42,738 nt of DNA from a virus: positions 1 to 42,738 of IMG/VR virus record IMGVR_UViG_3300025646_000094; one strand, 5' to 3'. The translations under genes were made by a program, and so were the position numbers. The notes under the pieces are model-generated. The model had not been told where the DNA came from. It worked only from the letters and a program-made list of their open reading frames with translations, and did not search any database. Shown piece after piece: positions 15,639 through 39,087 of the stretch. Numbering within the stretch: position 1 is the stretch's first letter; each line of letters begins with the position of its first letter.

Positions 15639-17609
15639 ATGGCATATTTGGGAAAAGGACCAGAACAAGTCTTATCAGGTGTTGCAAGTAAAAGCACTTT
15701 TACAGGTGACGGTTCTACTACCACTTTTGATATATCAACAGATATACCAGCGGGTGGTGAAAATGATATTCAAGTTTTTGTTGACAACGTAAGACAAGAG
15801 CCAGGCTCTGGTGCGTCATACACAGTTGGTGTTGATGGTTCAGGTAATTTAAGAAGAATTACTTTTAACGTAGCGCCAGAAGCAAGTCAATCCATTTATG
15901 TAATTAATCCAAGAAGATTAGAAGCGTTTGGTCAAGTACCAGATGGCGCAATCGCAACAGCAAAATTACAAGATACAGCAGTATCAACAGCAAAGATTGC
16001 AGCAGACGCTATTACAGAAGCAAAGATTGCTGATAATGCGATTAGTGAAGAACATTTAGATACGACAGTTGTAACAGGTTTAACAGAATTATCAGAAGAA
16101 GCAAATAATAGTGATACTTTAATTGTTTATGATGCAAGTGCTGGCGCTCTTAAAAAAATATTAAGAAGTAATCTTGTATTACAAGCACCAACAGTTTCAT
16201 CTGTATCACCAACATCAGTAACGTCTGGTGATGGTACAGGTAACTATACATTTACAATCACAGGATTAGGATTTACTGGTGGATCTGCTAGTTTAATTAA
16301 TAATTCAGGTACAACAGTTGACTTTGATACAGTTACAGTTGATAGTGCAACTCAAATTACTGGTGTGATTGCTAAATCATCATTACCAGGTTCTGGTGAA
16401 CCTTATGATGTTAAAATAACAGGTTCAAATGGTCTTGCATCTACTTTAGAAAATCAAATTAATATAGATCAATCTCCAACTTTTAATACTGCAGCAGGTA
16501 GTTTAGGTAATGTTCCAAATGGTGTTGTAGGTTCTACAACTTTAACAGTAGAAGCATACGATCCTGAGTCAGCAGGTAACGTTACTTTTGAATTACAATC
16601 AGGTTCTTTACCTGCTGGAGCTACAGCAACGACCGTCAACGAAAATGGTGTTTCAAAATATCAAATATCAGGTTTTAGTGCTGTAGGTTCAAACACAACT
16701 TCAAATTTTGTTTTAAGAGCATCTGATGCTAATTCTAACACAAGCTCAAGATCATTTAGTATTACACTATTAGCTCCTGCAATTGAGTCATTTACATCAT
16801 CTGGTACATTTAGTGTACCATCAGGTATCACTTCAGTTGATGTATTAGTAGTCGCTGGTGGCGGTGGATCAGGTTCTGCCGAATATGCTCACGTTGCTTC
16901 AGGTGGTGGTGGAGCTGGTGGATTAATATTCAAACCAGGATTCCCAGTTACACCAGGTGGAACAGTTACAGTTACAGTTGGTTGTGGTGGTGCTGGTGGT
17001 GGAGGCAGTCACTGTAGTGGTGGAAATGGACAAGATTCAGTATTCGGTACACTAACTGCTAAAGGTGGTGGAGGTGGTGCATCACTCGGGCGTGGACCTC
17101 TAAGTAATGCAGCACAGGATGGTATAGGTAATTCAGGAGGATCTGGTGGAGGCGGAGGTACAGCTAGTACACCTAATGCGGGTGGTGCAGCAATTCAACC
17201 TACTCAACCTGGTGATTCAGGTGCTTATGGATTTGGAAGTAACGGTGGTTTTGCTCAGCCCTATGGTACCACTCCAAAAGGAGCTGGTGGTGGTGGAGCA
17301 GGCGGTGCTGGTTCTCCTTATTGTGCTGGTCCTACTTCACAAGGTGCAGGTGGCGTTGGTAAAGCTTATACAATCGCAGATGGAACAACTCCAGTGTATT
17401 ACGCTGGTGGTGGTGGAGGAGGCGGAAATCCTTCAGGTGGTCAAGGTGGTCAAGGTGGAGGTGGAGAAGGTGGAAACTACCCTGCTGGAAGCGGACAAGC
17501 GGGCACAACAAATAGAGGTGGTGGCGCTGGTGGTAATGCTGTTGGAGGTTCTTCGAATCCTCAATTAGGTTTAACTGGCGGCAAAGGAATAGTAATCGTT
17601 AAATATTAA
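15639..17609 (+). CDS. Tail-fibre adhesin with glycine-rich tip, 656 aa
   Basis: Modular fibre protein. Residues about 20-95 form a GDGSTTTF/VRQEP module. About 105-145 is an Ala/Lys-rich helical linker (TAKLQDTAVSTAKIAADAIT). About 145-175 carries the attachment-like motif shared with four other proteins here (TELSEEANNSDTLIVYDASA followed by LKKI). About 180-280 is an IPT/TIG-like Ig domain (SSVSPTSVTSGDGTGNYTF). About 290-375 is a second Ig-like domain (FELQSGSLPAG). The last 270 residues are glycine-rich, with the signature VDVLVVAGGGGSG ... FGTLTAKGGGG ... GTTPVYYAGGG ... GGKGIVIV. Glycine-rich tips recognise receptors in other T4-like phages, so host binding is likely, not proven. GAGAGAG precedes the ATG. 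Confidence 0.82.
   Translation: MAYLGKGPEQVLSGVASKSTFTGDGSTTTFDISTDIPAGGENDIQVFVDNVRQEPGSGASYTVGVDGSGNLRRITFNVAPEASQSIYVINPRRLEAFGQVPDGAIATAKLQDTAVSTAKIAADAITEAKIADNAISEEHLDTTVVTGLTELSEEANNSDTLIVYDASAGALKKILRSNLVLQAPTVSSVSPTSVTSGDGTGNYTFTITGLGFTGGSASLINNSGTTVDFDTVTVDSATQITGVIAKSSLPGSGEPYDVKITGSNGLASTLENQINIDQSPTFNTAAGSLGNVPNGVVGSTTLTVEAYDPESAGNVTFELQSGSLPAGATATTVNENGVSKYQISGFSAVGSNTTSNFVLRASDANSNTSSRSFSITLLAPAIESFTSSGTFSVPSGITSVDVLVVAGGGGSGSAEYAHVASGGGGAGGLIFKPGFPVTPGGTVTVTVGCGGAGGGGSHCSGGNGQDSVFGTLTAKGGGGGASLGRGPLSNAAQDGIGNSGGSGGGGGTASTPNAGGAAIQPTQPGDSGAYGFGSNGGFAQPYGTTPKGAGGGGAGGAGSPYCAGPTSQGAGGVGKAYTIADGTTPVYYAGGGGGGGNPSGGQGGQGGGGEGGNYPAGSGQAGTTNRGGGAGGNAVGGSSNPQLGLTGGKGIVIVKY
16788..16826 (+). 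repeat. 39-nt exact repeat, copy 1 (adhesin paralogue)
   Basis: These 39 bases are identical to 37688-37726, in another glycine-rich adhesin gene about 21 kb away. They encode the junction between the second Ig-like domain and the glycine-rich domain (S-F-T-S-S-G-T-F-S-V-P-S-G). Identity at synonymous sites points to recent gene conversion or domain exchange, or to strong codon constraint. Confidence 0.85.
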
Positions 17610-18231: not shown

Positions 18232-19809
18232 ATGGCAAAGATACGACAATCAAACTTGGACAACTCAGTAATTATTGGAAATGTAGAATTGGCTGAAACA
18301 GCAGCAGCAAACGATATACTATTAGTTTATGATACAAGTTCAGGTACAATTAAGAAAATTCTATCTTCAAATATAGGTGTTCAAGCTCCTACTTTTACAA
18401 GTGTATCACCTACAAATGTTAACACTGGTGATGGTACAGGTAACGCTACATTTACAATTACAGGAGCAAATTTTGACGCAACGGTAACAGCAAAATTAAA
18501 AACAACTGGTGGCGCTGATTTAAATTTTGATAGTGTAACTAGAGATAGTGCTACACAAATTACAGGTGTTATTGCTATATCAAGTTTATCAAATGCAAAT
18601 GAACCTTATGACGTTGTGATTACAAATGGGAATGGTTTAATTACTACTGCAACAGATCAAATTAATATAAATGCGCAACCTGTGTATGTAACTGCTTCAG
18701 GATCTTTAGGAGAACAATTAGCCAACACAGCAGGTTCTTTTAGTGTTAACGCAACTGACCCAGAGTCAGCAGGTAATGTAACATTTGAATTACAATCAGG
18801 TTCTTTACCTCCAGGATATACACTTACAAATACAGCAGCAGAAGGTGGTACTGCAATTATAAGTGGTACAGATACTGTAACATCATCTGCAACAACATTT
18901 AATTTTGTATTAAGAGCCGTAGATGCGGCATCAAACACAACATCAAGAGCTTTTTCAATTAGAACTACTGTTCCAGTTTCAGAATCATTTACAGCATCAG
19001 GTACATTTAGTATACCATCAGGTATCACATCAGCAGATGTTCTTGTAGTCGCAGGTGGTGGTGGCGGTGGACCAGGAGGTCCTACAGGTGCAGGAGCTGG
19101 TGCTGGTGGTGGTGGAGCAGGTGCAGGGGGATTAATATTCTTTCCATCTTATCCTTTAAATCCGAGTGGTACAATAACAGTTACAGTTGGTAACGGTGGT
19201 GGTGCTAACAGTAATGGACAAAGTTCATCATTTGGTTCTCCAGGAGATCCTGGATTCACACCATCAAGTTCAGTTTTAACTGCCAATGGTGGTGGTGCAG
19301 GAGGTTACGCACCATTAGATGCGGGTAGTTCAGGAGGTTCTGGTGGTGGAGGAGGAGCAGGAAATGGAAGCCAATCTTCAGGTGGTACTGCTACTCAACC
19401 AACTGCACCCGGTAACTCTGGTGCTTATGGATTTGGAAACCCAGGTGGTAATTCAGCAGGAACTGACTATCAATCTGGCGGAGGCGGCGGAGGAGGTGCT
19501 GGTGCCTCAGGTAGTACAAATACAGGTTTTGCAGGGTCTCCAGGTGGTGACGGAAGAGCTTATACAATTGCTGACGGAACTACTCCAGTGTATTACGCTG
19601 GTGGCGGCGGAGGTGGTGGTGGTCATATTCCAGGGGGTGGTGGTACTCCTGCGCCAGGTGGTCAAGGTGGTGGAGGTGCAGGCGGAGCAGCACCAAGCGG
19701 TTCTGGATCAAATGGTGGAGTAAACACTGGTGGTGGTGCTGGAGGTGGTAGTCAACCTGCTGCTGGTGGTGGTACTGGTGGTAAAGGAATAGTTATCGTA
19801 AGATACTAA
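18232..19809 (+). CDS. Tail-fibre adhesin with glycine-rich tip, 525 aa
   Basis: Second member of the glycine-rich adhesin family. It lacks the GDGSTTTF module and begins almost directly with the shared attachment-like motif (about 17-45: VELAETAAANDILLVYDTSS, then IKKI). An IPT-like domain follows (about 50-150), then an Ig-like domain (about 155-255, with FELQSGSLPPGYTLTNTAAE) and a long glycine-rich C-terminus (about 262-525) ending GGKGIVIVRY. Landmarks LVVAGGGGGG, IADGTTPVYYAGGGG and GGAGGG occur in the same order as in its paralogues. Likely a receptor-binding fibre or tip. The start coincides with the predicted transcription start of a late promoter. Confidence 0.8.
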   Translation: MAKIRQSNLDNSVIIGNVELAETAAANDILLVYDTSSGTIKKILSSNIGVQAPTFTSVSPTNVNTGDGTGNATFTITGANFDATVTAKLKTTGGADLNFDSVTRDSATQITGVIAISSLSNANEPYDVVITNGNGLITTATDQININAQPVYVTASGSLGEQLANTAGSFSVNATDPESAGNVTFELQSGSLPPGYTLTNTAAEGGTAIISGTDTVTSSATTFNFVLRAVDAASNTTSRAFSIRTTVPVSESFTASGTFSIPSGITSADVLVVAGGGGGGPGGPTGAGAGAGGGGAGAGGLIFFPSYPLNPSGTITVTVGNGGGANSNGQSSSFGSPGDPGFTPSSSVLTANGGGAGGYAPLDAGSSGGSGGGGGAGNGSQSSGGTATQPTAPGNSGAYGFGNPGGNSAGTDYQSGGGGGGGAGASGSTNTGFAGSPGGDGRAYTIADGTTPVYYAGGGGGGGGHIPGGGGTPAPGGQGGGGAGGAAPSGSGSNGGVNTGGGAGGGSQPAAGGGTGGKGIVIVRY

Positions 19810-19817
19810 TATAAATA
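19810..19817 (+). promoter_or_regulatory. Consensus T4 late promoter
   Basis: Perfect TATAAATA beginning one base after the stop codon of the second adhesin. The leader of about 30 nt contains AAAGGAG (19839-19845), 9 nt before the ATG at 19855. Confidence 0.7.
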
Positions 19818-19854
19818 ATAATATAGTTAAATTATTTTAAAGGAGTAATTGAAA

Positions 19855-20295
19855 ATGGCTGAAGAAGAAAAGAAACACGGTGTAAAAGAACCCAATGAGG
19901 GTACAGATGGTAAACTGGCGTCAAATATGACTGGTGAAGCCATCGAAAGTAATTATGACTACGGTAGTATATCAGATAGTGATAAAAAAGTAGTTAGAGA
20001 AATTATTGATTTAATGCGACAAAGAGATCAAGTACCTTGTGGTATGTTCGCAGAAGAATTAAAAACAAAATTTCAAATGGTAGAAATACCAATGAAAAAA
20101 ATTGAAGACTCTGTATGGGGTCAGTTGACAAAAGATGAAAGACTTGGACAAAGTGTACAAGGTTTTAGACAGGCAACTGATGAAAATGGTGAGAAGATAC
20201 GAATACCACACGTTGGTTTCTCTGCTGACCTTGATTACCTTGACGAGTTTGTAAATAGATTAGTTAAAAAAATAGAGGGTATTAAAAGTAAATAA
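19855..20295 (+). CDS. Hypothetical protein, 146 aa, between adhesin genes
   Basis: I use the ATG at 19855 (MAEEEKKHG), which has AAAGGAG at the right distance, instead of the in-frame TTG six bases earlier. The protein is soluble and charged: an acidic, Gly-containing, probably disordered N-terminus (1-45), then helical segments (about 46-110: KKVVREIIDLMRQRDQVPCG; KKIEDSVWGQLTKDERLGQS) and a C-terminal helix (about 125-144). No fibre-type repeats, so it is not itself an adhesin. Its place between two fibre genes with its own late promoter would fit a fibre-assembly chaperone, but there is no motif evidence for that. Confidence 0.65.
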   Translation: MAEEEKKHGVKEPNEGTDGKLASNMTGEAIESNYDYGSISDSDKKVVREIIDLMRQRDQVPCGMFAEELKTKFQMVEIPMKKIEDSVWGQLTKDERLGQSVQGFRQATDENGEKIRIPHVGFSADLDYLDEFVNRLVKKIEGIKSK

Positions 20296-20307: not shown

Positions 20308-21885
20308 ATGGCACTTACAAAGATAACAAAATCTGGTATTACTAATAGCGCAGTTGATAATAATAAAATCGAAGCTGATGCAGTTGACGCTACTAAAATA
20401 GCGGATAACGCTATTAGTGAAGAACATTTAGATAAAACTAGTGTTACAGGTCATACTGAATTATCAGCTTCTGCTGATCCTAGTGATGTGTTATTAATAT
20501 ATGATGCTGATGCCGATGCTCTTAAAAAAATTACTGCTGGAAATGTTGGTTTACAAGCACCTACAATTTCTAGTGTTTCTCCTACAAGTGTGGCTCAAGG
20601 TGATGGTACAGGTAACTTTACATTTACAATTACAGGTACAAACTTTGTAACTGGAACAACAGCAGCTTTAATCAATACTTCTGGCACTACTGTTAATTTT
20701 GATACAGTAACTAGAAATAGTGTGACACAAATTACAGGTGTCATTGCTAAAACATCTATTAATCATGCTGGCGAACCTTATGATGTTAAAGTAACAACTC
20801 CTTCAAACTTAACAGCGACTTTAGAAGATCAAATTAATGTAGATCAAAGTCCTGCATTTGTTACAGCCGCTGGTTCTTTAGGAACTGTTGAAGATAATGC
20901 TAGAACTGGTGTATCTTTTTCAATAAATGCAACTGATCCAGATTCAGCAGGAAATGTTACTTTTGAAATTCAATCAGGTTCATTACCAGCAGGTTTATCA
21001 TTAACAAATACTGCAGCAGAAGGTGGAACAGCAATTATAAGTGGTACTGCAACTGCAGTTGGATCAGATACAACATCAAACTTTGTAATAAGAGCCGTTG
21101 ACGCTGCATCAAATACAAGTTCAAGAGCATTCTCAATAACAGTTAACGCACCTGTTGTTCAAACATTTACATCTTCAGGTACTTTTTCAGTACCAACTGG
21201 TGTTACAAGTGTACAAGTATTAGTAGTCGCTGGTGGAGGCGGTGGCGGAGGTATTAATCCTGGCGGAGGATCTAACGGATACTTCAATGGTGGTGGTGGA
21301 GCAGGTGGATTAGTTTTTCACCCAGCATATCCAGTAACACCAGGTGGAACAGTTTCAGTCACTGTAGGTGACGGTGGTACAGGTCCAGGTGGAGGGTGCA
21401 GAGGTGGTAACGGTCAACCTTCTGTGTTTGGAACTATTACAGCTCAAGGCGGAGGCGGTGGTGGTGGTTCAGGACAACCTGCTAATTGTGGTGGCTCTGG
21501 TGGAGGCGGTGGTGGTAATACTGGCTCTGGTGCAGGTGGTAATGGTCAACAAGGTCCTAGTGGTGGAGGAACAGGATATGGAAACAATGGTGGAACTGGA
21601 GCCTCTGGAGGTTCTGGTGCTGGTGGTGGAGGTGGCGCAGGTACCGCTGGTACACCTGGTGCATGTGGTTCTAATGGTGGTGATGGAAGATATTATACAA
21701 TTGCAGACGGTACTTCTCCAGTAGGTTATGCTGGTGGTGGAACAGGTGGTGACCACGGTGCGGCAACATCTACAGCTGGCGGTGGTGATAGAAGTTGTGG
21801 AACAGCAAATAGAGGTGGTGGCGCTGGTGGAAACCAAGATGCAAATGGCGGTAAAGGTGTTGTGATTGTTCGTTGGACAGTTTAA
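20308..21885 (+). CDS. Tail-fibre adhesin with glycine-rich tip, 525 aa
   Basis: Third glycine-rich adhesin. An N-terminal helical linker (about 10-45: AVDNNKIEADAVDATKIADN, then AISEEHLDKT) is nearly the same as the linker of the 656-residue paralogue. Then comes the shared motif (TELSASADPSDVLLIYDADA, about 49-70), an IPT-like domain (about 75-180), an Ig-like domain (about 185-285, FEIQSGSLPAGLSLTNTAAE) and a glycine-rich C-terminus from about 295 to the end, with several Cys in Gly contexts (GGGCRGG, NCGGSGG, GACGSNGG). It ends VVIVRWTV instead of IVIVRY. GAGAG precedes the ATG. Likely receptor-binding; directly upstream of the oxygenase island. Confidence 0.8.
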   Translation: MALTKITKSGITNSAVDNNKIEADAVDATKIADNAISEEHLDKTSVTGHTELSASADPSDVLLIYDADADALKKITAGNVGLQAPTISSVSPTSVAQGDGTGNFTFTITGTNFVTGTTAALINTSGTTVNFDTVTRNSVTQITGVIAKTSINHAGEPYDVKVTTPSNLTATLEDQINVDQSPAFVTAAGSLGTVEDNARTGVSFSINATDPDSAGNVTFEIQSGSLPAGLSLTNTAAEGGTAIISGTATAVGSDTTSNFVIRAVDAASNTSSRAFSITVNAPVVQTFTSSGTFSVPTGVTSVQVLVVAGGGGGGGINPGGGSNGYFNGGGGAGGLVFHPAYPVTPGGTVSVTVGDGGTGPGGGCRGGNGQPSVFGTITAQGGGGGGGSGQPANCGGSGGGGGGNTGSGAGGNGQQGPSGGGTGYGNNGGTGASGGSGAGGGGGAGTAGTPGACGSNGGDGRYYTIADGTSPVGYAGGGTGGDHGAATSTAGGGDRSCGTANRGGGAGGNQDANGGKGVVIVRWTV

Positions 21886-21932: not shown

Positions 21933-22517
21933 ATGTACTTAAAAACTATTCATAATTATATACATCTATTTAAATTTAGTTTAGATAAAAACAAACTAAT
22001 ACACAGTTCGAAAAATCTATATGAACTTGTAAAAAATAATCTTTATACAAATCAACAAATCAAAAGTACAATATCCACAGATCTGTACGAAAGGTATAAT
22101 TACTTAATGTATCCATCTGATGAGATACACAAATTATATACTGAAATAAAAACTGCCTTTGATAGTGTAAAAGATGATCTTAATAAGAAATACTATATAC
22201 AATGTTGGTTAAATTATTATAACAAAGGTGATTTTATAGATTGGCATAGTCATTGGGAAAAAGAAAAAGAAGCTTGGCATGGTTTTTATTGCTTAGATTG
22301 TGAACCATCTTTTACTTCTTATAAATTACCTAATATTAAAGACCCGATAAATATATACAGTGAAGATAATTTAATGGTAATAAGTAAAAGTAATGGAGAT
22401 GAACATAGAACTTGGCCTTGGGAATATGATAAACCAAGATTAACGATTGCCTTTGATATTGTTCCATATGAGTATATAAATTACAAACAATGGACAAATC
22501 ATTGGTTACCTATTTAA
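21933..22517 (+). CDS. 2OG-Fe(II) oxygenase-like protein (island gene 1)
   Basis: A protein of about 194 residues with the double-stranded beta-helix oxygenase pattern: W-H-S-H (near 104-107 from this start) as the H-x-H metal pair, a distal His in GDEHRTWPW (near 158) and an Arg in KPRLTIAFDIVP (near 169) expected to bind the 2-oxoglutarate carboxylate. The H-x-H variant is seen in the phage family PF13759. Start is uncertain: no ribosome site is visible, and the open frame extends to a TTG at 21915. An ATG at 21911 in another frame reads only 14 codons (MIDFEIYNVLKNYS), so a slip near the 5' end is conceivable. First gene of the enzyme island; substrate unknown. Confidence 0.65.
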   Translation: MYLKTIHNYIHLFKFSLDKNKLIHSSKNLYELVKNNLYTNQQIKSTISTDLYERYNYLMYPSDEIHKLYTEIKTAFDSVKDDLNKKYYIQCWLNYYNKGDFIDWHSHWEKEKEAWHGFYCLDCEPSFTSYKLPNIKDPINIYSEDNLMVISKSNGDEHRTWPWEYDKPRLTIAFDIVPYEYINYKQWTNHWLPI

Positions 22518-22529
22518 TGAAAGTGATGT

Positions 22530-23219
22530 ATGAGTAAATTTATAACTAATATAGCAAATTTTGAAACTGAAGATGGTGATAAAATATTATATCCATTTAG
22601 TCCACCCATATTTCAAACAGAAGTAGATTCAAATTTCACAAAAGAATTAATAGAAGAAGGTCGTAAACTTACAAAAGAAGAAGACGATTACAACCATAAA
22701 CTTGCTGGTAATCTAAAATATGGTAGATCATATCATTACAAAGAAGATTACTTACTCAAAGTAGAACCTTATTTAAAGACTTACGTAGAAAGATTTTTAA
22801 ATGGAATATACAAACAATATGGACCTAAACATAAGGGTGTTAATGAACTATTACGAGTACAACACGATAGAAGACAAATTAGAAACGGATTTATAAGATT
22901 AGATACATTATGGATAAATTTTTCTCAAAAACACGATTTTAACCCACCACATACTCATACAGGTATATTATCTTTTGTTATATTTTGTCAAGTGCCTGAA
23001 GAAATATTTAAAGTACAAGCTGATAGTAATACTCAAAGAGCGGGTGAGATACATTTTCAATATGGTGACCCAATAACTAAATTAATGGGTTGTGAATATC
23101 CTGTACAACCATATGAAAACTTAATGTTTATATTTCCTGCAGAATTAAGACATTATGTTCCTGCGTATTGGGTTGACGCAGAACGTATCAGTGTATCAGG
23201 TAATTTTGTGGTAGTTTAG
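22530..23219 (+). CDS. 2OG-Fe(II) oxygenase, PF13759-like (island gene 2)
   Basis: A 229-residue oxygenase. Metal and cosubstrate residues are visible in the expected order: H141-x-H143 (FNPPHTHTGILSFVIF), distal H208 (IFPAELRHYVPAYW) and R219 (ERISVSGNFVV). The layout strand-H-x-H-strand ... FPxxxxH ... RxSxSxNF is typical of the 2OG-Fe(II) oxygenase superfamily members common in marine T4-like phages. The N-terminal 110 residues are a helical region with charged surfaces that may define the substrate. It starts 12 nt after the previous gene and ends 2 nt before the next, so they are likely co-transcribed. Confidence 0.82.
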   Translation: MSKFITNIANFETEDGDKILYPFSPPIFQTEVDSNFTKELIEEGRKLTKEEDDYNHKLAGNLKYGRSYHYKEDYLLKVEPYLKTYVERFLNGIYKQYGPKHKGVNELLRVQHDRRQIRNGFIRLDTLWINFSQKHDFNPPHTHTGILSFVIFCQVPEEIFKVQADSNTQRAGEIHFQYGDPITKLMGCEYPVQPYENLMFIFPAELRHYVPAYWVDAERISVSGNFVVV

Positions 23220-23221
23220 TT

Positions 23222-23779
23222 ATGGATTTAAATAATATAAAAAATGAAGGTGGTATCTACATAAAAGAAAACTTTTTTACAAAAGATCAATTTGATAAGA
23301 TTAATGATAATTTTTTAAATAAAACTTTTTATCCTCATCATCAACCAGAAAAATATGAGTGTGGAAATAGATTTCAAGCATATCCGTGTTATCAATTTGA
23401 TGACACAAATGAAATTTCATTGATTATTGGTAACTATTTTAAAACTAGTTTTAATGATGATTTTAGAGTAGAAACTACTTATAGAAAAGTTTATTCGGAA
23501 GAATTATTAAAATCTAAATGTAATACTCGATATGGTTTTATACACACAGACGGAGGAATGTATGGAAATTGTTTATATGCTGGTGTTATATATATGGATT
23601 TTAGTAATACAGGTGGTACTGCTTTTTTTAATGCACCATCGGATAAATTTCCTGATATAGAAATAGGAGCAGTTCCTAATAGACTTATTTTATATGATAA
23701 TAAGAGATTTCACGCACCATCGCATGATTTTACATATGAGGTTAGAAAAAATATATGTTTTTTTATCTATGATAAATAA
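23222..23779 (+). CDS. DUF6445-like Fe(II) oxygenase-fold protein (island gene 3)
   Basis: A 185-residue protein with H108-x-D110 (YGFIHTDGGMYG), a second metal His at 164 or 168 (DNKRFHAPSHDF) and R175. The strings AGVIYMDF, GGTAFFNAP and NRLILYDNKRFHAPSHDF match what I know of the DUF6445 family, which shares the 2OG oxygenase fold. The N-terminal 60 residues are Asn-rich and include an ENFFTKDQFDKI helix typical of prolyl-hydroxylase-like proteins. Substrate unknown. The intergenic distance of two bases and absence of a ribosome site suggest translational coupling with gene 2. Confidence 0.75.
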   Translation: MDLNNIKNEGGIYIKENFFTKDQFDKINDNFLNKTFYPHHQPEKYECGNRFQAYPCYQFDDTNEISLIIGNYFKTSFNDDFRVETTYRKVYSEELLKSKCNTRYGFIHTDGGMYGNCLYAGVIYMDFSNTGGTAFFNAPSDKFPDIEIGAVPNRLILYDNKRFHAPSHDFTYEVRKNICFFIYDK

Positions 23780-23796
23780 AATGAAGGAGTTATAGA

Positions 23797-24579
23797 ATGC
23801 AAGTACAAAATTCATATTTTTGGTTTAAAGAAGCATTGACACCAGAACAATGTCAAAAGATTATTGATCTTGGTACATCTGAAATAGAACGTATTAAGAA
23901 AGCTGGCGGGTCAGCAGAGGCAACAACGTTTGGCGATAATCATAAACAAGGTTTAGAAAAACTAGGTAAATCAGCAGTACCACAAGCAGATAGAACAATT
24001 GAAGAATTAAAACAAGAAACAGGAAAAGAAGGTAGAGAAATAGAACAAGAAAAATATGTAAGAGATAGTGAAGTTTCTTGGTTAAACGATCAGTGGTTAT
24101 ATGATCTTATACACCCTTTTTTAAGAACAGCAAATGATAAAGCTGGTTGGAAATACGAGTGGGACTTTAGTGAGTCTTTTCAATTTACAAAATATGGTCC
24201 TGGTCAATTTTACGGTTGGCACGCAGATGGAAATAGTTGTCATTTTGGACGATATAAAAGATATATCCCAGGTGTAAGTCCGACAACACCAGAGGGTAAG
24301 ATACCTAGAGGTTATACAGATAACTCCAATATGATTGGTAAGATACGTAAACTATCTATGACAATTAATTTAAATCAACCAGGTGAATATGATGGTGGAA
24401 ATTTAAAGTTTGATTTTGGTCCACACGCTCAAGGAAAACGTTTCCACGAGTGTACAGAGATACGACCACAAGGATCAATCATTGTATTTCCATCATATGT
24501 GTATCATCAAGTAACACCAGTAACAAGAGGAACAAGATATTCATTAGTTTTATGGTCGCTAGGTCAACCTTTTAAGTAA
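23797..24579 (+). CDS. Prolyl-4-hydroxylase-type 2OG-Fe(II) oxygenase (island gene 4)
   Basis: A 260-residue protein of the P4H/PKHD type. It shows FYGWHADG (H142-x-D144), YDGGNLKFDFG (the strand after the metal pair), GSIIVFPSYVYHQVTPVTRG (distal H237) and R247 in GTRYSLVLWSLG, the complete facial triad plus the 2OG-binding Arg. The N-terminal helix (TPEQCQKIIDLG) is also typical of this family. Residues 30-90 are a charged insertion, probably the substrate side. AAGGAG lies before the ATG, one of two strong ribosome sites in the island, so this may be a well-expressed member. Known relatives hydroxylate peptidyl or free amino acids; the substrate here is unknown. Confidence 0.87.
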   Translation: MQVQNSYFWFKEALTPEQCQKIIDLGTSEIERIKKAGGSAEATTFGDNHKQGLEKLGKSAVPQADRTIEELKQETGKEGREIEQEKYVRDSEVSWLNDQWLYDLIHPFLRTANDKAGWKYEWDFSESFQFTKYGPGQFYGWHADGNSCHFGRYKRYIPGVSPTTPEGKIPRGYTDNSNMIGKIRKLSMTINLNQPGEYDGGNLKFDFGPHAQGKRFHECTEIRPQGSIIVFPSYVYHQVTPVTRGTRYSLVLWSLGQPFK

Positions 24580-24610
24580 GACTAAATAAAGATAAACAAG
24601 GAGTAATAAA

Positions 24611-25447
24611 ATGAGTTTGATGAAAAAGTATATTTCAAATTGGGACACACTAACAGAAGAACAAAAGAAAGACGCAGAGGCGAAGTTTAAAGGTAATCCT
24701 GGACTTAATGCTGCTGTGGTTCACCCTGCCGCTAAATTTTTTGAAGAAAATAGATGGGTTAAGATAGATAGATTTATAGATCAAAATATGGCAAATCTAT
24801 TGTATCATCACGTACAGTTAGAAACTGCTCGATTAAATTACTATGATGAAAATGGTATAACATATAATAAAGATATAGACGGTACTTTTGAAGACGAACA
24901 AGCTCCTGGTGACTTTAGTAAGTATGGTGACCCTATCTTTGATACTCTTTTAAGTTTATCTTTAGAACAAATGCAAACTCTTACAGGAAAAGAATTAGTC
25001 CCTACCTATTCTTATCATAGATTATACACAACTGGTACAGAACTCAAAAGACACCAAGATAGACCAAGTTGTGAAATCTCAACTACTCTTTGTTTAGGTT
25101 ATGATGTATCAAACGTTGATACTAGTAAATATCCAGATTGGGATTGGCCAATGTTTGTAAAAGAAAAAAATGGAAAAGAAATTCCTGTTCATATGAAACC
25201 AGGTGATATGATTATCTATCGTGGTTGTGAATTAGAACATTGGAGAGAACCATATTGGGGTAAAAATCACGCACAAGTCTTTTTACATTATAATGAAAAA
25301 GGTGGACAATATGATATACCTTTTGATGGTAGACCAATGTTAGGAATGCCGGCATCATTTAGAGATGAAAAGGCGATTGAAAGAAACGATAATCCAAACG
25401 TAACTGAAAATAAGGTAGTAAATACATCTAAAAAAGTTATCTACTAA
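24611..25447 (+). CDS. 2OG-Fe(II) oxygenase-like protein (island gene 5)
   Basis: A 278-residue protein with H148-x-D150 (ELKRHQDRPSCEISTTLCLG), the turn KPGDMIIYRG before the distal metal His at 210 (CELEHWREPYWG), and a final strand AQVFLHYNEKGG. R212 or a nearby basic residue could bind 2-oxoglutarate; the canonical Arg is less clear than in its neighbours. The N-terminal 100 residues contain a helical FFEENRWVKIDRFIDQNMAN segment typical of phytanoyl/prolyl hydroxylase-like folds. The 40-residue C-terminal tail is charged and likely flexible. The start is supported by AAGGAG (24598-24603) 7 nt upstream of ATG 24611. Confidence 0.78.
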   Translation: MSLMKKYISNWDTLTEEQKKDAEAKFKGNPGLNAAVVHPAAKFFEENRWVKIDRFIDQNMANLLYHHVQLETARLNYYDENGITYNKDIDGTFEDEQAPGDFSKYGDPIFDTLLSLSLEQMQTLTGKELVPTYSYHRLYTTGTELKRHQDRPSCEISTTLCLGYDVSNVDTSKYPDWDWPMFVKEKNGKEIPVHMKPGDMIIYRGCELEHWREPYWGKNHAQVFLHYNEKGGQYDIPFDGRPMLGMPASFRDEKAIERNDNPNVTENKVVNTSKKVIY

Positions 25448-25460
25448 ATTATATTAAATT

Positions 25461-26117
25461 ATGTCAGGTAAAAAAATACAACAATATTGGGACGTAAAAA
25501 TTATCAAAGATAATCCTACGTTTCCTTTTTTAGTGATAGACAATTGGTATACACCAGAAGAAGAAAAAGCCGTTTGGAAAGAATTAGATTTCTTTAGCGC
25601 AACTCCAAAAGAACAAATTGATCGTGCTGAAAATACAATTGTAGCTCGTGATCCAGATGGCAACGCAAAAAGTAAAGCATATAGATTTTACATAGATGGT
25701 TTTTATAATAAACGTAAATTATCCCCTATAATAAACAGTATGTATAAACAAAGAACACCAGAGTTTCACAATATCATAAAAGAATGTATACCATATGCTC
25801 GTAGTTTTTTAGCTTCAAATGAAGATTCAAGTTTAATATCTTATTACGAAGAAAATGACCATTATGAACCTCACCACGATAATTTTGCGTGGACTTGTTT
25901 GGTATGGATGGTAAGAGAACCACGATTATTTAATGGTGGTGATTTTAAGTTAAACGAACCAGATGTAGAAGTTAAATTAAAAAATAATAGAATGATAATT
26001 TTTCCTAGTTGTTTTTTACATAGTGTATCACCTGTAAAATTTCATACACAACCAAAAGAAATTGGTTATGGAAGATATACGATAACACACTTTTATTATT
26101 CAACACCATTAGATTAA
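25461..26117 (+). CDS. 2OG-Fe(II) oxygenase-like protein (island gene 6)
   Basis: A 218-residue oxygenase. H138-x-D140 lies in YYEENDHYEPHHDNFAWTCL, the strand NGGDFKLNEP follows, then NRMIIFPSCFLHSVSPV with distal H187, and R205 in GYGRYTITHFYY. This is the full triad plus 2OG-binding Arg in P4H-like order. The early segment FPFLVIDNWYTPEEEKAVWK is the usual entry strand and helix. It sits two bases before the halogenase start, with no ribosome site for either, so the two are probably translationally coupled. Substrate unknown. Confidence 0.82.
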   Translation: MSGKKIQQYWDVKIIKDNPTFPFLVIDNWYTPEEEKAVWKELDFFSATPKEQIDRAENTIVARDPDGNAKSKAYRFYIDGFYNKRKLSPIINSMYKQRTPEFHNIIKECIPYARSFLASNEDSSLISYYEENDHYEPHHDNFAWTCLVWMVREPRLFNGGDFKLNEPDVEVKLKNNRMIIFPSCFLHSVSPVKFHTQPKEIGYGRYTITHFYYSTPLD

Positions 26118-26119
26118 TT

Positions 26120-27643
26120 ATGAAAACAAATAAGATTATTATAGTAGGTGGTGGTAGCGCTGGTTGGATGGCAGCGGCTACTCTAATATCACAATTTCCA
26201 AATAAAGACATTACTGTTATCGAATCATCAAATGTTCCTACAGTTGGTGTAGGTGAAAGCACCTTAGGTCAAATTAATGACTGGTTAGATTTATTGAATA
26301 TAAAAGATGAAGACTTTATGCCTTATACAGATGCAAGTTATAAGTTAAGTATTCGTTTTGAAGATTTTTATAAAAAAGGTGATGGTGGTTTTCATTATCC
26401 ATTTGGATCTGTAATAGAAAATGAAAAATTAGGTACAAAACAATTATGGTTTTTAAAGAAATACTTACAACCAGAAACTCCTATTACAGATTATGCTAAT
26501 TCAATTTATCAAAATATGGCATTAGTCAATCAAAATGTTTTATTTAAAAATGAAAATAGAGAATTAGAATATTTTGATTTTAAACGTCACGTTGCTTATC
26601 ACTTTGATGCTACTAAATTTGGATTATGGTTAAAAGATCAATATTGTAAACCAAAAGGTGTTAAACACATATTAGAAGATGTAAAAACAATCGAAACAAA
26701 TGAAGATGGTATATTATCTTTAAACAATATACACAAAGCTGATATGTTTATTGATTGTACTGGTTTTAAATCGTTATTACTAGGTGACACACTAAAAGAG
26801 CACTTTAATGACTACTCTAACTTGTTAGTTAACAATAAAGCTTGGGCAACAAGAGTACCGTATAAAGATAAAGAAAACGAATTAGTCCCTTACACAAATT
26901 GTACAGCAATTGAAAATGGTTGGGTGTGGAATATACCAAGTTGGGAACGAATAGGTACAGGTTATGTATATTCTGACAAATATGTAAGTGATGAAGAAGC
27001 GTTAAATGAATTTAAAAGACATTTAGATAAAAAAGGAAGTGACTACTCAAAAAGTGAATTTAAAAATATAAAAATGAGAGTGGGAATACACGATAGATTA
27101 TTTGTAAAAAATGTATGCGCCATCGGTCTATCTGCTGGCTTTATAGAGCCATTAGAGTCAAATGGATTATTAAGTGTACACGAATTTTTAATTAATCTTA
27201 TTAAAATAATGAAGCGAGGAGAAGAAGATACAATAAGTCAATGGGATAGAGATAACTTTAATGTAGCGTGTAAAAGATTTTTTGATGGATTTACAGAATT
27301 TGTTGCAATGCACTATGCGTTATCACATAGAGATGATACAAAATATTGGAAAGATATATCTAATAGGTCTTTTTATGATAATAGACTAGGCGATGAAAAT
27401 ATATACCAAGATGTAATAACAAAGATGGACAAAAATAATTGGATAAATTCACATAGTGGACATCATTGTATAGGAGTAGGATTAAGATATTTTGGTTTTG
27501 ATGTTTTAAAAGATAATTCATCAGAAGATTCAAAAATAAAAATAGGTTTAAGAGAAAAAGAAGTCAATAAATGGAATATTGTTTGTAAAGATAAACCTAA
27601 ATTATTACAATTTTTAAAAGATAACATACATAAAGATGCCTGA
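26120..27643 (+). CDS. Flavin-dependent tryptophan-halogenase-like enzyme
   Basis: A 507-residue protein with the features of the FADH2-dependent halogenase family (PF04820). It has an N-terminal dinucleotide-binding loop GGGSAGW (10-16), the segment VPTVGVGESTLG (39-50), the catalytic lysine in TDASYKLSIRF (K75, equivalent to PrnA K79), the W-x-W-x-I-P signature (268-273) followed by GTGYVYS, and GFIEPLESNGL (340-350), whose E346 matches the PrnA active-site Glu. All key residues are present and length is normal. A related cyanophage enzyme (VirX1) halogenates many aromatic substrates in vitro. No flavin reductase gene is in this window, so reduced flavin must come from elsewhere. The substrate could be a small aromatic or a peptide. 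Overlaps the next gene by 8 nt. Confidence 0.9.
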   Translation: MKTNKIIIVGGGSAGWMAAATLISQFPNKDITVIESSNVPTVGVGESTLGQINDWLDLLNIKDEDFMPYTDASYKLSIRFEDFYKKGDGGFHYPFGSVIENEKLGTKQLWFLKKYLQPETPITDYANSIYQNMALVNQNVLFKNENRELEYFDFKRHVAYHFDATKFGLWLKDQYCKPKGVKHILEDVKTIETNEDGILSLNNIHKADMFIDCTGFKSLLLGDTLKEHFNDYSNLLVNNKAWATRVPYKDKENELVPYTNCTAIENGWVWNIPSWERIGTGYVYSDKYVSDEEALNEFKRHLDKKGSDYSKSEFKNIKMRVGIHDRLFVKNVCAIGLSAGFIEPLESNGLLSVHEFLINLIKIMKRGEEDTISQWDRDNFNVACKRFFDGFTEFVAMHYALSHRDDTKYWKDISNRSFYDNRLGDENIYQDVITKMDKNNWINSHSGHHCIGVGLRYFGFDVLKDNSSEDSKIKIGLREKEVNKWNIVCKDKPKLLQFLKDNIHKDA

Positions 27644-28253
27644 ATTTAAAGTACATAACTTATGGCCTATACCAGTATATGATTCTAAAATACCTGTAAA
27701 ACAGAAATGGAAAGACTTTATTATCAATTTGAAATATGATAGAACACATATTAATAACAGCGACATTTCTAAAGATCGTTACATATTAAATAATATGCCA
27801 GAATTAAAAGCCGAAATCGAAAAACATTGTGAACATTATGTTAGAAAATATTTAACTGTAAAACCTAATACACAATTTTATTTACTAAATTCTTGGAGTA
27901 ATATTCATAATCCTAAAGAATATTCACAAATACATTGTCACGTTAATTCAATTTTAAGTGGTGTATATTATCCTATAATTCCAAAAAATTCAGGTAATCT
28001 ATGTTTTCATAAAGCTTATAATATGAAAAATATAATTGACCAAAATATATTGTTAGAATATGAAGAACTAAATAACATAACAGCACAAAAATATATTTTA
28101 AATGTTGAAGAAGGAAGTATTGTAATGTTCCCATCTCATTTAGATCATAGCGTGGAAAGAAATAATAGTAATGAAAAACGATACTCGATTGCGTTTAACT
28201 TTTATGTTAGAGGTAAATTTGGAAAAGAAGAATACGAACTGGAGATAAAATAA
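27636..28253 (+). CDS. 2OG-Fe(II) oxygenase, PF13759-like (island gene 8)
   Basis: A 205-residue protein with the PF13759/TIGR02466-type pattern. It begins LWPIPVYDSKIP, typical of these phage proteins. The metal pair H100-x-H102 lies in SQIHCHVNSILSGVYY, the distal H171 in GSIVMFPSHLDHSVERN, and R182 in KRYSIAFNFYVRG. The start overlaps the last 8 nt of the halogenase, so translation is likely coupled to it, which makes it the best candidate for a functional partner. Substrate unknown. Confidence 0.82.
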   Translation: MPEFKVHNLWPIPVYDSKIPVKQKWKDFIINLKYDRTHINNSDISKDRYILNNMPELKAEIEKHCEHYVRKYLTVKPNTQFYLLNSWSNIHNPKEYSQIHCHVNSILSGVYYPIIPKNSGNLCFHKAYNMKNIIDQNILLEYEELNNITAQKYILNVEEGSIVMFPSHLDHSVERNNSNEKRYSIAFNFYVRGKFGKEEYELEIK

Positions 28254-28546
28254 TGAGTGAAGATAAAAAAGAAGAAAAGAAATTTGAAGTTGATTATAGT
28301 AATCTAAAACCTTTAGATGTAAAAAAGACAAAGGGTAAATTTAAAACATTTACAAATGGAAGTGTAATACAAGGTACAGAGTTTCAACCATATCTTGGAA
28401 AACCATTGACGATAAATATAGACAAAATACTTTCTGTGTATCCAAGTGAAGATGAGATTGGAACAATGATACACGCCGAACAAAATCAAAGTACCTGGAA
28501 AGTATTAGAAGACTTTGATACAGTTATTAAAAGAATAAATGAATAA
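28253..28546 (+). CDS. Hypothetical protein, 97 aa, inside the oxygenase island
   Basis: Shares one base with the gene before it (ATAATG) and one with the gene after it, so it is translationally coupled on both sides. The N-terminus is Lys/Glu-rich and probably disordered (1-20). The rest has alternating short strands and Gly turns (KFKTFTNGSVIQGTEFQPYL) and an acidic helix at the end (WKVLEDFDTVIKRI). It contains no oxygenase triad and no cysteines. It could be a small adaptor or substrate-presenting factor for the enzymes around it; that is a guess from position only. Confidence 0.65.
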   Translation: MSEDKKEEKKFEVDYSNLKPLDVKKTKGKFKTFTNGSVIQGTEFQPYLGKPLTINIDKILSVYPSEDEIGTMIHAEQNQSTWKVLEDFDTVIKRINE

Positions 28547-29223
28547 TGATTAAATCAGAATATTTTGCATCGCCAGTTTATATAGAAGAAAAACCTGAGT
28601 GGGTAGAAAATTTAGATAAACTCTCCGATCCATATATTAAACAAGCAAGAGATGACCAAGAAGAAAATAATAAAAAAAGATTAGAGATTGGTTATAAAAA
28701 TGATATTGGTATGACTTATCATAGTCACCCTTTAGAACCAGATCCAAACTTTAGATTTTTCCACGATTATGTTGCTCAAAAATCTCGTTGGTGTTTAGAT
28801 GATATGGGTTATGCTATGGATAATTATAGTTTAGTCTATACAGAAAGTTGGGTACAAGAGTTTTCATTTAATGGCGCTGGTCACCACTGGTTCCACACAC
28901 ATAGTAATAATCATATATCTGGTTTCTACTTTTTAAAGGTGAGTGAGAAGACCTCAAGGCCATTTTTTCAGGATCCACGAACAGCACACGTACCACTTAA
29001 ATTAAAAGAAAAAGATTCTACAAAGATTTCAAATGTAAACGATTTAGTTAATTTTAATGTTAAACCAGGAACACTTATGTTGTTTCCAGCGTATATGTCA
29101 CACGCTTATATGGTCGATCACGGTATTGAACCATTTAGATTTATACACATTAATATAAGAGCAGTAGAAAAAGATATTTTATCATCTTTTAGTATGAACT
29201 CATCAAATTTTTCTAATAAATAG
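28546..29223 (+). CDS. 2OG-Fe(II) oxygenase, PF13759-like (island gene 10)
   Basis: A 225-residue protein ending the enzyme island. The pattern HHWFHTHSNNHISGFYFL holds the metal pair H117-x-H119, LMLFPAYMSHAYMVDHG the distal H186, and PFRFIHINIRAV the Arg at 198 expected to bind 2-oxoglutarate. The N-terminal 100 residues are helical and charged, with a conspicuous Tyr/Trp-rich segment (SLVYTESWVQEF) just before the barrel. Overlaps the previous stop by one base. Closest in type to island genes 2 and 8, so these three look like diverged paralogues. Substrate unknown. Confidence 0.82.
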   Translation: MIKSEYFASPVYIEEKPEWVENLDKLSDPYIKQARDDQEENNKKRLEIGYKNDIGMTYHSHPLEPDPNFRFFHDYVAQKSRWCLDDMGYAMDNYSLVYTESWVQEFSFNGAGHHWFHTHSNNHISGFYFLKVSEKTSRPFFQDPRTAHVPLKLKEKDSTKISNVNDLVNFNVKPGTLMLFPAYMSHAYMVDHGIEPFRFIHINIRAVEKDILSSFSMNSSNFSNK

Positions 29224-36859: not shown

Positions 36860-36871
36860 ATAGTATAAATA
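36855..36871 (+). promoter_or_regulatory. Tandem late promoters GATAAATAG-TATAAATA
   Basis: The same 17-nt string as at 15217-15233: GATAAATA (36855-36862) then TATAAATA (36864-36871). The first box includes the gp15 stop codon. A GAGAGA ribosome site precedes the adhesin ATG at 36890. Confidence 0.7.
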
Positions 36872-36889: not shown

Positions 36890-38500
36890 ATGTCAATTAG
36901 TAAAATTAAAGAAAAATCATTAACAACTGGCGCAGTTACTGACGCTAATTTTGATAAAACAGTATTAACAGATCAAACAGAATTATCAGCAACAGCAGCA
37001 AGTGATGATATTTTATTAATTTACGATACAAGTGCTGGCGTTATTAAAAAAATTCAAAGATCAAATGTTTCTTTACAAGTACCTACTTTTAGTTCAGTAA
37101 GTCCAACATCATTAACTACAGGTGATCTAACTGGCAATTACACAATTGTTGTAACAGGAACTGGTTATGATGAAAGTGCTACTTTTAAATTAAGAACAAC
37201 TGGTGGTACAGATATTTCAATGGATAGTGTGACTAGAAATAGCTCAACTCAATTAACAGGTACAGTTGCTAAAAATACAGCAAACTTAACAAATGCAAAT
37301 GAACCATTTGATATTATTATTACAAACAGTTCTGGTTTGTTAACAACTGCAACAAATCAAATTAATATTGACGCACAACCGGTTTACACAACTGCTTCTG
37401 GTTCTTTAGGTTCAGGTACAGGTGGTAGTTCATTATCATTTTCTGTTAACGCAACTGATCCAGAATCAGCAGGTAATGTTACTTTTGAATTACAATCAGG
37501 AAGTTTACCTCCAGGATTGAGTTTAACTAACACTGCAGCGGAAGGTGGTACAGCCATTATATCTGGTACAGCAACAAATCCTGCAGCAAACACAACTTAT
37601 AACTTTGTTTTGAGAGCAGTAGATGCAGCGTCAAACACATCATCAAGAGCTTTTTCAATTACAATCAATAGATTATTTACATCACAATCATTTACATCAT
37701 CTGGTACATTTAGTGTACCATCAGGTGTTACAGTTACAGATGTATTAGTTGTAGCAGGTGGTGGTGGTGCAGGAGATGACTATGGTGGTGGTGGTGGCGC
37801 TGGTGGTCTTATTTTTATGCCAGAGTATCCTGTTACGCCAGGTGGAACAGTTACAGTTACAGTTGGTTGTGGTGGTTCAGCTGGTAGTTCACCAGCGGGA
37901 CAACCTGCAGCACGAGGTGGAACGGGACAAGATTCGGTATTTGGAACCTTAACTGCTAAAGGTGGTGGTGGAGGTGGTGGAGGTAATATTTTACTTGATG
38001 GTCTTCCAGGTGGATCTGGAGGTGGTGGGTCAGGACACGGAACAAATTGTCCAGGTACACAAAACTCAGGTGGTGGTGCAACTCAACCAACTCAACCAGG
38101 TAACTCTGGTGCTTATGGTTTTGGAAATGCTGGTGGAGATGGTGTAAGACCTGGTACAACTTCTTTATTTAGTGGTGGAGGTGGTGGCGCTCTATATCCT
38201 GGAGCGATAGGTTGTGGAACAACACCTGCCACTCCTTTAACTTGTGGTGCAGGTGGAACTGGTAAAGCTTACACGATTGCAGATGGTACAACTCCAGTAT
38301 ATTACGCTGGTGGTGGTGCAGGTGCTCATTACAACAGTACTTTCACAGCAAGACCTGGTGGTCAAGGTGGTGGAGGTAACAGTCGAGGACCTTGCAGTCC
38401 TGCAGGCCAATCTGGAGAAGCAAATAAAGGTGGTGGTGCTGGAGGAAACGCAGCAAGTCAAGCAATAGGTGGTAAAGGTATAGTAATAGTAAGATACTAA
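36890..38500 (+). CDS. Tail-fibre adhesin with glycine-rich tip, 536 aa
   Basis: Fourth glycine-rich adhesin, placed apart from the other three between gp15 and gp16. The order is the same: shared motif TELSATAASDDILLIYDTSA, then IKKI (about 28-58), IPT-like domain (about 62-165, SSVSPTSLTTGDLTGNYTI), Ig-like domain (about 170-265, FELQSGSLPPGLSLTNTAAE) and glycine-rich C-terminus (about 275-536) ending GGKGIVIVRY. A 39-nt stretch is identical to the 656-residue paralogue. Several Cys occur in Gly loops (GCGGS, NCPGT, GCGTT). Likely receptor-binding. A 2OG oxygenase gene follows immediately. Confidence 0.8.
   Translation: MSISKIKEKSLTTGAVTDANFDKTVLTDQTELSATAASDDILLIYDTSAGVIKKIQRSNVSLQVPTFSSVSPTSLTTGDLTGNYTIVVTGTGYDESATFKLRTTGGTDISMDSVTRNSSTQLTGTVAKNTANLTNANEPFDIIITNSSGLLTTATNQINIDAQPVYTTASGSLGSGTGGSSLSFSVNATDPESAGNVTFELQSGSLPPGLSLTNTAAEGGTAIISGTATNPAANTTYNFVLRAVDAASNTSSRAFSITINRLFTSQSFTSSGTFSVPSGVTVTDVLVVAGGGGAGDDYGGGGGAGGLIFMPEYPVTPGGTVTVTVGCGGSAGSSPAGQPAARGGTGQDSVFGTLTAKGGGGGGGGNILLDGLPGGSGGGGSGHGTNCPGTQNSGGGATQPTQPGNSGAYGFGNAGGDGVRPGTTSLFSGGGGGALYPGAIGCGTTPATPLTCGAGGTGKAYTIADGTTPVYYAGGGAGAHYNSTFTARPGGQGGGGNSRGPCSPAGQSGEANKGGGAGGNAASQAIGGKGIVIVRY
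37688..37726 (+). repeat. 39-nt exact repeat, copy 2 (adhesin paralogue)
   Basis: Identical to 16788-16826. It marks the same domain junction, at the entry to the glycine-rich tip. Confidence 0.85.
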
Positions 38501-38520: not shown

Positions 38521-39087
38521 ATGAAACCTAATGATAGGATACTTGTCTTTGATGATATTATAGATAAACAATCTCAAAAACAAATTCAACACATACTCTT
38601 TGATAAAGTCAGATGGCAATTTGTAGCCGATGTTACAAAACCAGATAACAAACAACAACGACCAGGTTTCTCTTATTACTTTATTACAGATAAAACAAAC
38701 GTCTTTGATTATCATAAAGATGTATTAAAGATCATAGATGCCGCTTGTCAAAAGATAAATTTTAAAAGACAAGATTGTTTACAAGGTCGTTCTTTTTTAC
38801 AACTTCCATTAAATCTAAAAGATAAAAGTATAGATACACCACACGTTGATGCTGATGTAGAACATTTAGTCGTTTTATATTATGTCAATGATAGTGATGG
38901 CGATACTGTAATCTATGAAAACACATTTAAAGGTTATGATAATGTACCTCACTTTAACGAATTAAAAGAAAAACAAAGAGTAACTCCAAAAGCAGGAAGA
39001 GTAGTTATCTTTAATGGTAAACATTGGCATACCAGTTGCCAACCACAACACAATGTTAGATGTATAATTAACTATAATTTAATCTAA
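38521..39087 (+). CDS. 2OG-Fe(II) oxygenase-like protein beside terminase
   Basis: A 188-residue oxygenase separate from the main island. H108-x-D110 lies in IDTPHVDADVEHLVVLYYVN, the strand GDTVIYENTF follows, then AGRVVIFNGKHWHTSCQPQH with the distal metal His (168 or 170), and R180 in NVRCIINYNLI. The N-terminal 55 residues form the usual strand-helix entry (RILVFDDIIDKQSQKQIQHI). It follows a glycine-rich adhesin gene directly, as island gene 1 does. Substrate unknown. Its stop codon lies in the late promoter of gp16. Confidence 0.82.
   Translation: MKPNDRILVFDDIIDKQSQKQIQHILFDKVRWQFVADVTKPDNKQQRPGFSYYFITDKTNVFDYHKDVLKIIDAACQKINFKRQDCLQGRSFLQLPLNLKDKSIDTPHVDADVEHLVVLYYVNDSDGDTVIYENTFKGYDNVPHFNELKEKQRVTPKAGRVVIFNGKHWHTSCQPQHNVRCIINYNLI

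Follow-up and report, generated by a model that had tools for sequence, protein, structure and literature searches.

An ordered oxygenase-halogenase block beside a Gly-rich adhesin gene in a marine T4-like phage fragment: a candidate adhesin-tailoring module

Oxygenases dependent on Fe(II) and 2-oxoglutarate (2OG) are among the commonest unexplained genes in marine T4-like phages, and the locus described here raises the question of what a whole array of them acts upon. The window analyzed is the 42,738-bp stretch covering positions 1 to 42,738 of IMG/VR virus record IMGVR_UViG_3300025646_000094. It holds a block of ten open reading frames (ORFs) arranged head to tail on the plus strand (21915/21933-29223), comprising eight oxygenases, one flavin-dependent halogenase and one 97-aa gene; a ninth oxygenase lies elsewhere, at 38521. 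Judging by where these genes lie, we propose, and give an even chance of being right, that the enzymes post-translationally hydroxylate or halogenate the Gly-rich receptor-binding fibre made with them.

The fragment in the window comes from a T4-like marine phage of the pelagimyophage type. Its large terminase (TerL) is 76% identical to that of Pelagibacter phage Mosig, and its gene order runs from baseplate through fibres, enzyme block, further fibres, neck (gp13-gp14-gp15) and terminase to tail sheath. The block occupies the location of the pelagimyophage host-recognition cluster, with baseplate genes to one side, the gp13/gp14 neck genes to the other and fibres alongside (boundaries per PMC7029224). 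A megablast search of the island against phage records gave no match.

The enzyme identities are well supported, with five of the eight block oxygenases scoring over the Pfam cut-off, two (ox1 and ox3; Table 1) placed by PHROG profiles and one (ox5) by its fold. A preliminary description of this DNA had listed eight oxygenases with an H-x-D/H...H...R pattern and a halogenase with an intact active site, and Pfam and PHROG profiles, the ox5 model and motif alignments bear out this inventory, as Pfam scores do the assignment of ox2, ox7 and ox8 to PF13759 and of ox4 to the prolyl 4-hydroxylase (P4H) type. The HxD or HxH residues of the putative metal site are found in all eight and are conserved in relatives, forming an HxD...H triad in ox3, ox4, ox5 and ox6 and HxH...H instead in ox1, ox2, ox7 and ox8; HxH also occurs in 3bvc and 2rg4, PF13759-like structures lacking an assigned function. 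The remainder of the pattern is less uniform. The 2OG-binding Arg is present in ox1, ox2, ox3, ox4, ox6 and ox7 but is replaced in ox5 and weakly conserved in ox8, and in ox1, where H111-x-H and R175 are conserved, the distal His does not align with that of its few relatives. The DUF6445 label given to ox3 survives as a weak resemblance below the cut-off (21.8 vs 24), the protein matching phrog_274 instead (7e-8), a family also matched by the bona fide oxygenase ox9. Similarly, the description of the remaining oxygenases as divergent fits ox1 and ox5 but not ox6, which is also P4H-like (PF13640). Weak matches to structures of the PKHD hydroxylase PiuC were found for ox4, and relatives of ox8 occur in podophage-like pelagiphages.

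Named a "ferrochelatase" in PHROG and GenBank, ox5 models as a divergent Fe(II)/2OG oxygenase with a prolyl-hydroxylase fold. No Pfam match was found for it; its AlphaFold (AF2) model (predicted local distance difference test, pLDDT, 82) is matched by Foldseek at probability 1.0 to prolyl hydroxylases, including the Pseudomonas putida prolyl-4-hydroxylase (4j25/4iw3) and human PHD2. In its alignment HxD and the distal His are invariant, with an invariant His220 where the 2OG-binding Arg is expected. The fold, together with the absence of a Pfam match, rules out a ferrochelatase. In PMC11561400, phage "ferrochelatases" (phrog2954) are seasonally enriched and co-occur with 2OG oxygenases; on this model the two would probably be groups of one superfamily. 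Two further families, phrog_274 ("DNA endonuclease V") and phrog_1644 ("minor coat protein"), are matched by the proteins at 23222, 25461 and 38521, which have the 2OG oxygenase motif; going by that motif, the first name is likely, and the second possibly, wrong and propagated in GenBank cyanophage records. An annotation fix is indicated for phrog_2954 and phrog_274, which look like oxygenases, and possibly for phrog_1644.

The halogenase has as its best PDB match VirX1 (6qgm; phmmer, 8e-107), and its motifs, those of a PF04820 variant A enzyme, are intact, with GGGSAG at residue 10, WVWNIP at residue 268, and SYK (catalytic Lys) and FIEPLES (active-site Glu) aligning with the corresponding VirX1 residues. 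The active site of VirX1 is large and open, and many small aromatics serve as its substrates in vitro (PMC8407142). Iodide preference and a trimeric state are further marks of the VirX1 type.

The arrangement of promoters supports one late transcription unit shared by the block and adhesin 20308 (adhesins are named by start coordinate). The T4 late promoter motif, TATAAATA, occurs at eight sites, all eight on the plus strand and intergenic, where intergenic sequence makes up 639 of the 39,845 bases scanned (1.6%), and no site lies inside the enzyme block. Downstream of the site at 19810 follow a 148-aa gene, adhesin 20308 and then the entire block, while the site at 36864 begins a second late unit of Gly-rich adhesin 36890 followed by ox9. 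Late expression and tight packing, both anticipated in the preliminary description, agree with these positions and with inter-gene gaps along the block of 12, 2, 17, 31, 13, 2, -8, -1 and -1 nt. Looser ATAAATA matches are found within or near the block (near 22347, 23772, 28412 and 29216), so weaker internal starts are conceivable.

By analogy, 20308 is proposed to be a virion receptor-binding fibre. PF21722 (Gly_rich_2) exceeds its cut-off at the C terminus of four window proteins (15639-17609, 18232-19809, 20308-21885 and 36890-38500), the other three being 57-61% identical to 20308, and four such paralogs in one 42-kb fragment suggest adhesin amplification. The AF2 model of 20308 (pLDDT 83) is matched by Foldseek to the fibre of cyanophage Pam3 (7ypx; TM-score 0.50 by target, 24% identity), whose Gly-rich domain is assigned to receptor and host recognition (PMC9608196). 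This match covers only part of 20308 (TM-score 0.26 by query), and Ig-like folds rank alongside it because the N-terminal half of 20308 consists of beta-sandwich domains.

Enzymes and Gly-rich genes are also found together in other phages. Of 12 complete genomes of cultured phages with a VirX1-like halogenase, ten have it no more than 3 kb downstream of a PF21722 gene, vs 0.32 expected at random positions, and a Gly-rich gene lies within 5 kb upstream of 34 of the 50 sequence-dereplicated halogenases of known context (31/38 in the main VirX1-like clade). Among the matches listed, an oxygenase on the same strand follows within 8 kb in 20 of 25 Gly-rich clusters, where 6.7 would be expected (nominal P 1.6e-8); because the genomes are related to one another and were picked by halogenase or ox5 similarity, such P values overstate independence, and the linkage is a strong enrichment rather than an exact probability. 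The usual layout upstream of a VirX1-like halogenase is one to three Gly-rich fibre genes and a gene of ~140-190 aa, then the enzymes. Three genomes gave no PF21722 match; in these a divergent Gly-rich gene lies 17 nt to ~5 kb upstream of the oxygenases, such frames numbering only two per genome. The adhesin-oxygenase pairing occupies at least two genome slots, one upstream of gp13 and one after gp15 (window 36890/38521, L009, L025/26), and the 61-kb pelagiphage HTVC023P carries the pair twice. In most loci, as at both sites in the window, the Gly-rich gene is the sole structural gene adjoining the enzymes. Lower-scoring copies of the halogenase within the 12-genome set behave differently, none of seven lying within 3 kb of a Gly-rich gene. 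As a separate observation, lower-scoring cyanophage halogenases (250-285 bits or split; W03, W07, W08, W14, W15, W17) stand away from Gly-rich genes, and this set possibly has a different function.

Comparison with relatives separates a stable part of the block from a variable one. The order ox5-ox6-(halogenase)-next oxygenase is common to approximately 29 IMG/VR contigs, with a fuller order of ox4-ox5-ox6-(halogenase)-ox7/8-small gene recurring; with this recurrence, the genes are not carried independently by relatives, and the conserved order foreseen earlier is found. The earlier view of oxygenases and halogenase as a single joined set holds for packing and order but not for membership, as the halogenase is exactly between ox6 and ox7 in seven of the ~29 contigs, window included, and is absent from this slot in 22 of the 29, including the window's nearest relatives (ox5 94% identical). 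The ox5 tree requires four changes of halogenase presence or absence, at least two of them forced by well-supported branches. With or without the halogenase the array keeps its order, so the oxygenases make up the stable part of the block, into which the halogenase fits as an optional, exchangeable cassette. Two corrections apply: a ninth oxygenase, ox9 (38521-39087), lies beyond 21933-29223, 20 nt after Gly-rich gene 36890, and the cluster is not of exceptional size for marine T4-like phages, with 10 oxygenases and a halogenase in S-CREM1 (PMC9964418) and 24 oxygenases in S-SCSM1 (PMC9602691).

Prolyl-hydroxylase-like folds elsewhere act on proteins. We favor reading the island as a module for tailoring adhesins, placed within the host-recognition region of a phage resembling pelagimyophages. 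A single late transcript, starting at the 19810 promoter and ending near 29790, would supply the Gly-rich adhesin, the eight oxygenases and the halogenase together. Ahead of assembly, the oxygenases would hydroxylate side chains in the Gly-rich tip that binds the receptor, or in fibre proteins adjacent to it, and the open-pocket VirX1-type halogenase would optionally place Br or I on an aromatic side chain. Such modification might alter or diversify the receptor contact, or harden the fibre. Virion adhesins were already among the candidate substrates of the preliminary description, and they remain supported as such. That description had also spoken of a tailoring set without a visible scaffold gene; profile searches indeed found no biosynthetic scaffold, but the adhesin gene went unmentioned, and most simply the missing "scaffold" would be 20308, just upstream.

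Several observations weigh against adhesin tailoring. No experimental report of fibre modification was found in the literature, and a hot spot at which both kinds of gene insert could also account for the linkage. Trp, Tyr and Phe contents of Gly-rich domains do not differ with and without an adjacent halogenase (W p=0.37, Y p=0.17), and on this composition test the idea that halogenase targets would show up as extra Trp or Tyr in these domains was rejected. Not every halogenase adjoins a Gly-rich gene; among the exceptions are the copies in S-B64 and HTVC008M. Salmonella phage S16 has a known Gly-rich adhesin; searches of S16 gave no PF21722, phrog_81 or phrog_61 match, hence no oxygenase by two profiles, which shows only that a Gly-rich adhesin can function without these enzymes. 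His is higher in the Gly-rich domains of halogenase-bearing loci (p=0.0007), a difference confounded by cyanophage lineage and one of 13 residues tested.

Among alternatives, a late action directed at the host fares best, though we consider it unlikely. Here the enzymes would modify the peptides or glycans of the host envelope or else a small aromatic compound (chlorotryptophan, pyrrolnitrin-like), shielding the cell or blocking other phages. The breadth of VirX1 toward small aromatics in vitro would suit such a role (PMC8407142), as would the role in antibiotic protection that PMC2984593 and PMC9964418 ascribe to cyanophage prnA and the glycosyltransferases, thought to change the host surface, that PMC7029224 reports in pelagimyophage host-recognition clusters. 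However, the window genes profiled include neither a scaffold nor a carrier protein, a transporter or an enzyme for later pathway steps, co-transcription with fibre genes comes late for host remodelling, and the recurrent Gly-rich adhesin link is left unexplained.

The slot between tail fibres and neck is called hypervariable by Zaragoza-Solas et al. (PMC7029224), and the genes could be hot-spot cargo whose oxygenase roles are unrelated to one another (2OG level and nitrogen signalling, or DNA repair). Oxygenases are scattered elsewhere as well, e.g., beside uvsW/uvsY, and 2OG-modulation and repair roles have been proposed (PMC3037559, PMC2984593). This is also rather unlikely, as the array order is held while the halogenase varies, and eight divergent enzymes with conserved metal sites exceed what would be needed for burning 2OG. 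The adhesin-oxygenase pair appears again in the second slot after gp15 and twice in HTVC023P, and a hot spot alone explains neither of these.

A third alternative, which we hold improbable, retains virion proteins as substrates and makes the Gly-rich gene a mere neighbour, with baseplate, neck or the 864-aa and 2047-aa fibre/baseplate proteins being modified. Many structural genes flank the island, and the genomes of S-SM2 and S-PM2 have further large structural genes separating the oxygenases from the Gly-rich gene; nevertheless, it is the Gly-rich gene that adjoins the enzymes at both window sites and at most loci. DNA-base modification was set aside, since the enzymes belong to the P4H and PF13759 families and cyanomyoviruses reportedly lack modified nucleotides (PMC2984593). 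A natural-product biosynthetic cluster was rejected because the window genes profiled, among which the 97-aa gene 28253 is unclassified, include no scaffold-forming enzyme, carrier protein or precursor of a ribosomally synthesized and post-translationally modified peptide.

Two small genes accompany the enzymes. The 97-aa gene 28253 lies among the oxygenase genes and is not recognisable as an oxygenase. The 148-aa gene 19849 gave no PHROG match and no Pfam match over cut-off, and its relatives separate the Gly-rich fibre gene from the oxygenases. Genes of ~150-165 aa from phrog_1787 (cyanophages) and phrog_7759 (IMG/VR contigs) stand likewise between Gly-rich fibre and enzymes; the ~150-aa genes match only these PHROGs, which have no assigned function, and no PDB sequence. 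As the Pam3 report (PMC9608196) describes a 162-aa chaperone encoded together with the fibre, the recurrent ~150-aa gene is plausibly, from position and size, a tail-fibre chaperone.

Table 1. Positions of the enzyme, adhesin, promoter and small-gene features in the window
Feature	Coordinates	Strand	Evidence and remarks
Late promoter TATAAATA	19810..19817	+	heads unit holding island; next site 29810
148-aa gene	19849..20295	+	position and size of tail-fibre chaperone
Gly-rich tail-fibre adhesin, TIG + PF21722 (Gly_rich_2)	20308..21885	+	58.8 bits (cut-off 24.3); candidate substrate
ox1, divergent oxygenase, HSH motif	21933..22517 (alternative TTG start 21915)	+	phrog_81 2.3e-8; weak in Pfam
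ox2, PF13759 oxygenase, HTH...H...R	22530..23219	+	46.1 bits; motif kept 65/65
ox3, HTD...H...R oxygenase, DUF6445-like/phrog_274	23222..23779	+	motif kept 11/11
ox4, P4H-type PF13640, HAD...H...R	23797..24579	+	52.2 bits
ox5, predicted prolyl-hydroxylase-fold oxygenase	24611..25447	+	phrog_2954 6.5e-48; model
ox6, PF13640 oxygenase, HHD...H...R	25461..26117	+	38.4 bits; motif kept 35/35
VirX1-type flavin-dependent halogenase	26120..27643	+	PF04820 339.6 bits, 4e-101
ox7, PF13759 oxygenase, HCH...H...R	27636..28253	+	81.4 bits
97-aa conserved small protein	28253..28546	+	no Pfam/PHROG match; 26 relatives in fetched loci
ox8, PF13759 oxygenase, HTH...H	28546..29223	+	47.2 bits
Late promoter TATAAATA	36864..36871	+	second adhesin-oxygenase unit
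Fourth paralog of the Gly-rich adhesin, lying between gp15 and gp16	36890..38500	+	PF21722 55.9 bits
ox9, ninth oxygenase	38521..39087	+	PF13640 29.7 bits (cut-off 27); phrog_274 2.3e-30

Many oxygenases, as well as prnA, have been reported in cyanophages and read as serving DNA repair, antibiotic protection or the modulation of 2OG or nitrogen (PMC3037559, PMC2984593, PMC9964418, PMC9602691, PMC9146016). No prior statement of adhesin tailoring was found in the open-licence literature searched; in the accessible part of Mizuno et al. (PMC3909814), Fe(II) oxygenases of metaviromic islands are tabulated as "host recognition" without argument. VirX1 is employed in chemistry though its natural substrate is not known, and the Gly-rich adhesin link merges this question with that of the oxygenase substrates. 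If the proposal is correct, phages would here be chemically modifying the very proteins with which they bind receptors, an unusual case. In a broader and more tentative form, which we rate at somewhat less than an even chance, marine phages would run a dedicated oxidative system of post-translational modification, in which an ordered hydroxylase array and an exchangeable halogenase act on the polyglycine adhesins encoded with them to diversify or harden the receptor contact beyond what the encoded sequence allows.

Comparison with known systems shows both shared and distinct elements. The window halogenase has in common with VirX1 of cyanophage Syn10 (6qgm) the GxGxxG motif, the catalytic Lys, WxWxIP and FIEPLES, and is about 40% identical to it. 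Fibre gp24 of Pam3 and its chaperone gp25 (7ypx) resemble the window in combining a Gly-rich receptor-recognition domain with a small gene encoded alongside; the small genes here have no sequence match to any solved structure, and the accessible part of PMC9608196 mentions no enzyme island beside the Pam3 fibre. The pelagimyophage host-recognition cluster (PMC7029224) has the matching location, beginning on the baseplate side, reaching gp14 and including tail fibres; it is glycosyltransferases that are named there, and the words oxygenase and halogenase are absent from the paper. Mosig (EXVC030M), the nearest cultured relative, has the order Gly-rich fibre, 19849 homologue, ox4, ox5, other oxygenases and gp13, with no halogenase in the slot but instead genes annotated as heme oxygenase and phycocyanobilin:ferredoxin oxidoreductase. 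This heme oxygenase/bilin reductase pair (12763-13999 in Mosig, L002) follows the oxygenases, and a similar-sized pair is present in L051 and L118; a heme oxygenase in this SAR11 phage would also free iron, which the oxygenases require. Among Kyanoviridae, the cultured cyanophages syn9, S-CREM1 and S-RIM44, as well as Sf-CH11, carry one to two halogenases and three to ten oxygenases after Gly-rich fibre genes, in S-RIM44 and Sf-CH11 before the neck genes gp13/gp14 as in the window. Unlike the window, these blocks mostly place the halogenase first, draw on other oxygenase subfamilies and have the phrog_1787 small gene between fibre and halogenase. The block described here exemplifies a widespread arrangement; what is new is its adhesin context.

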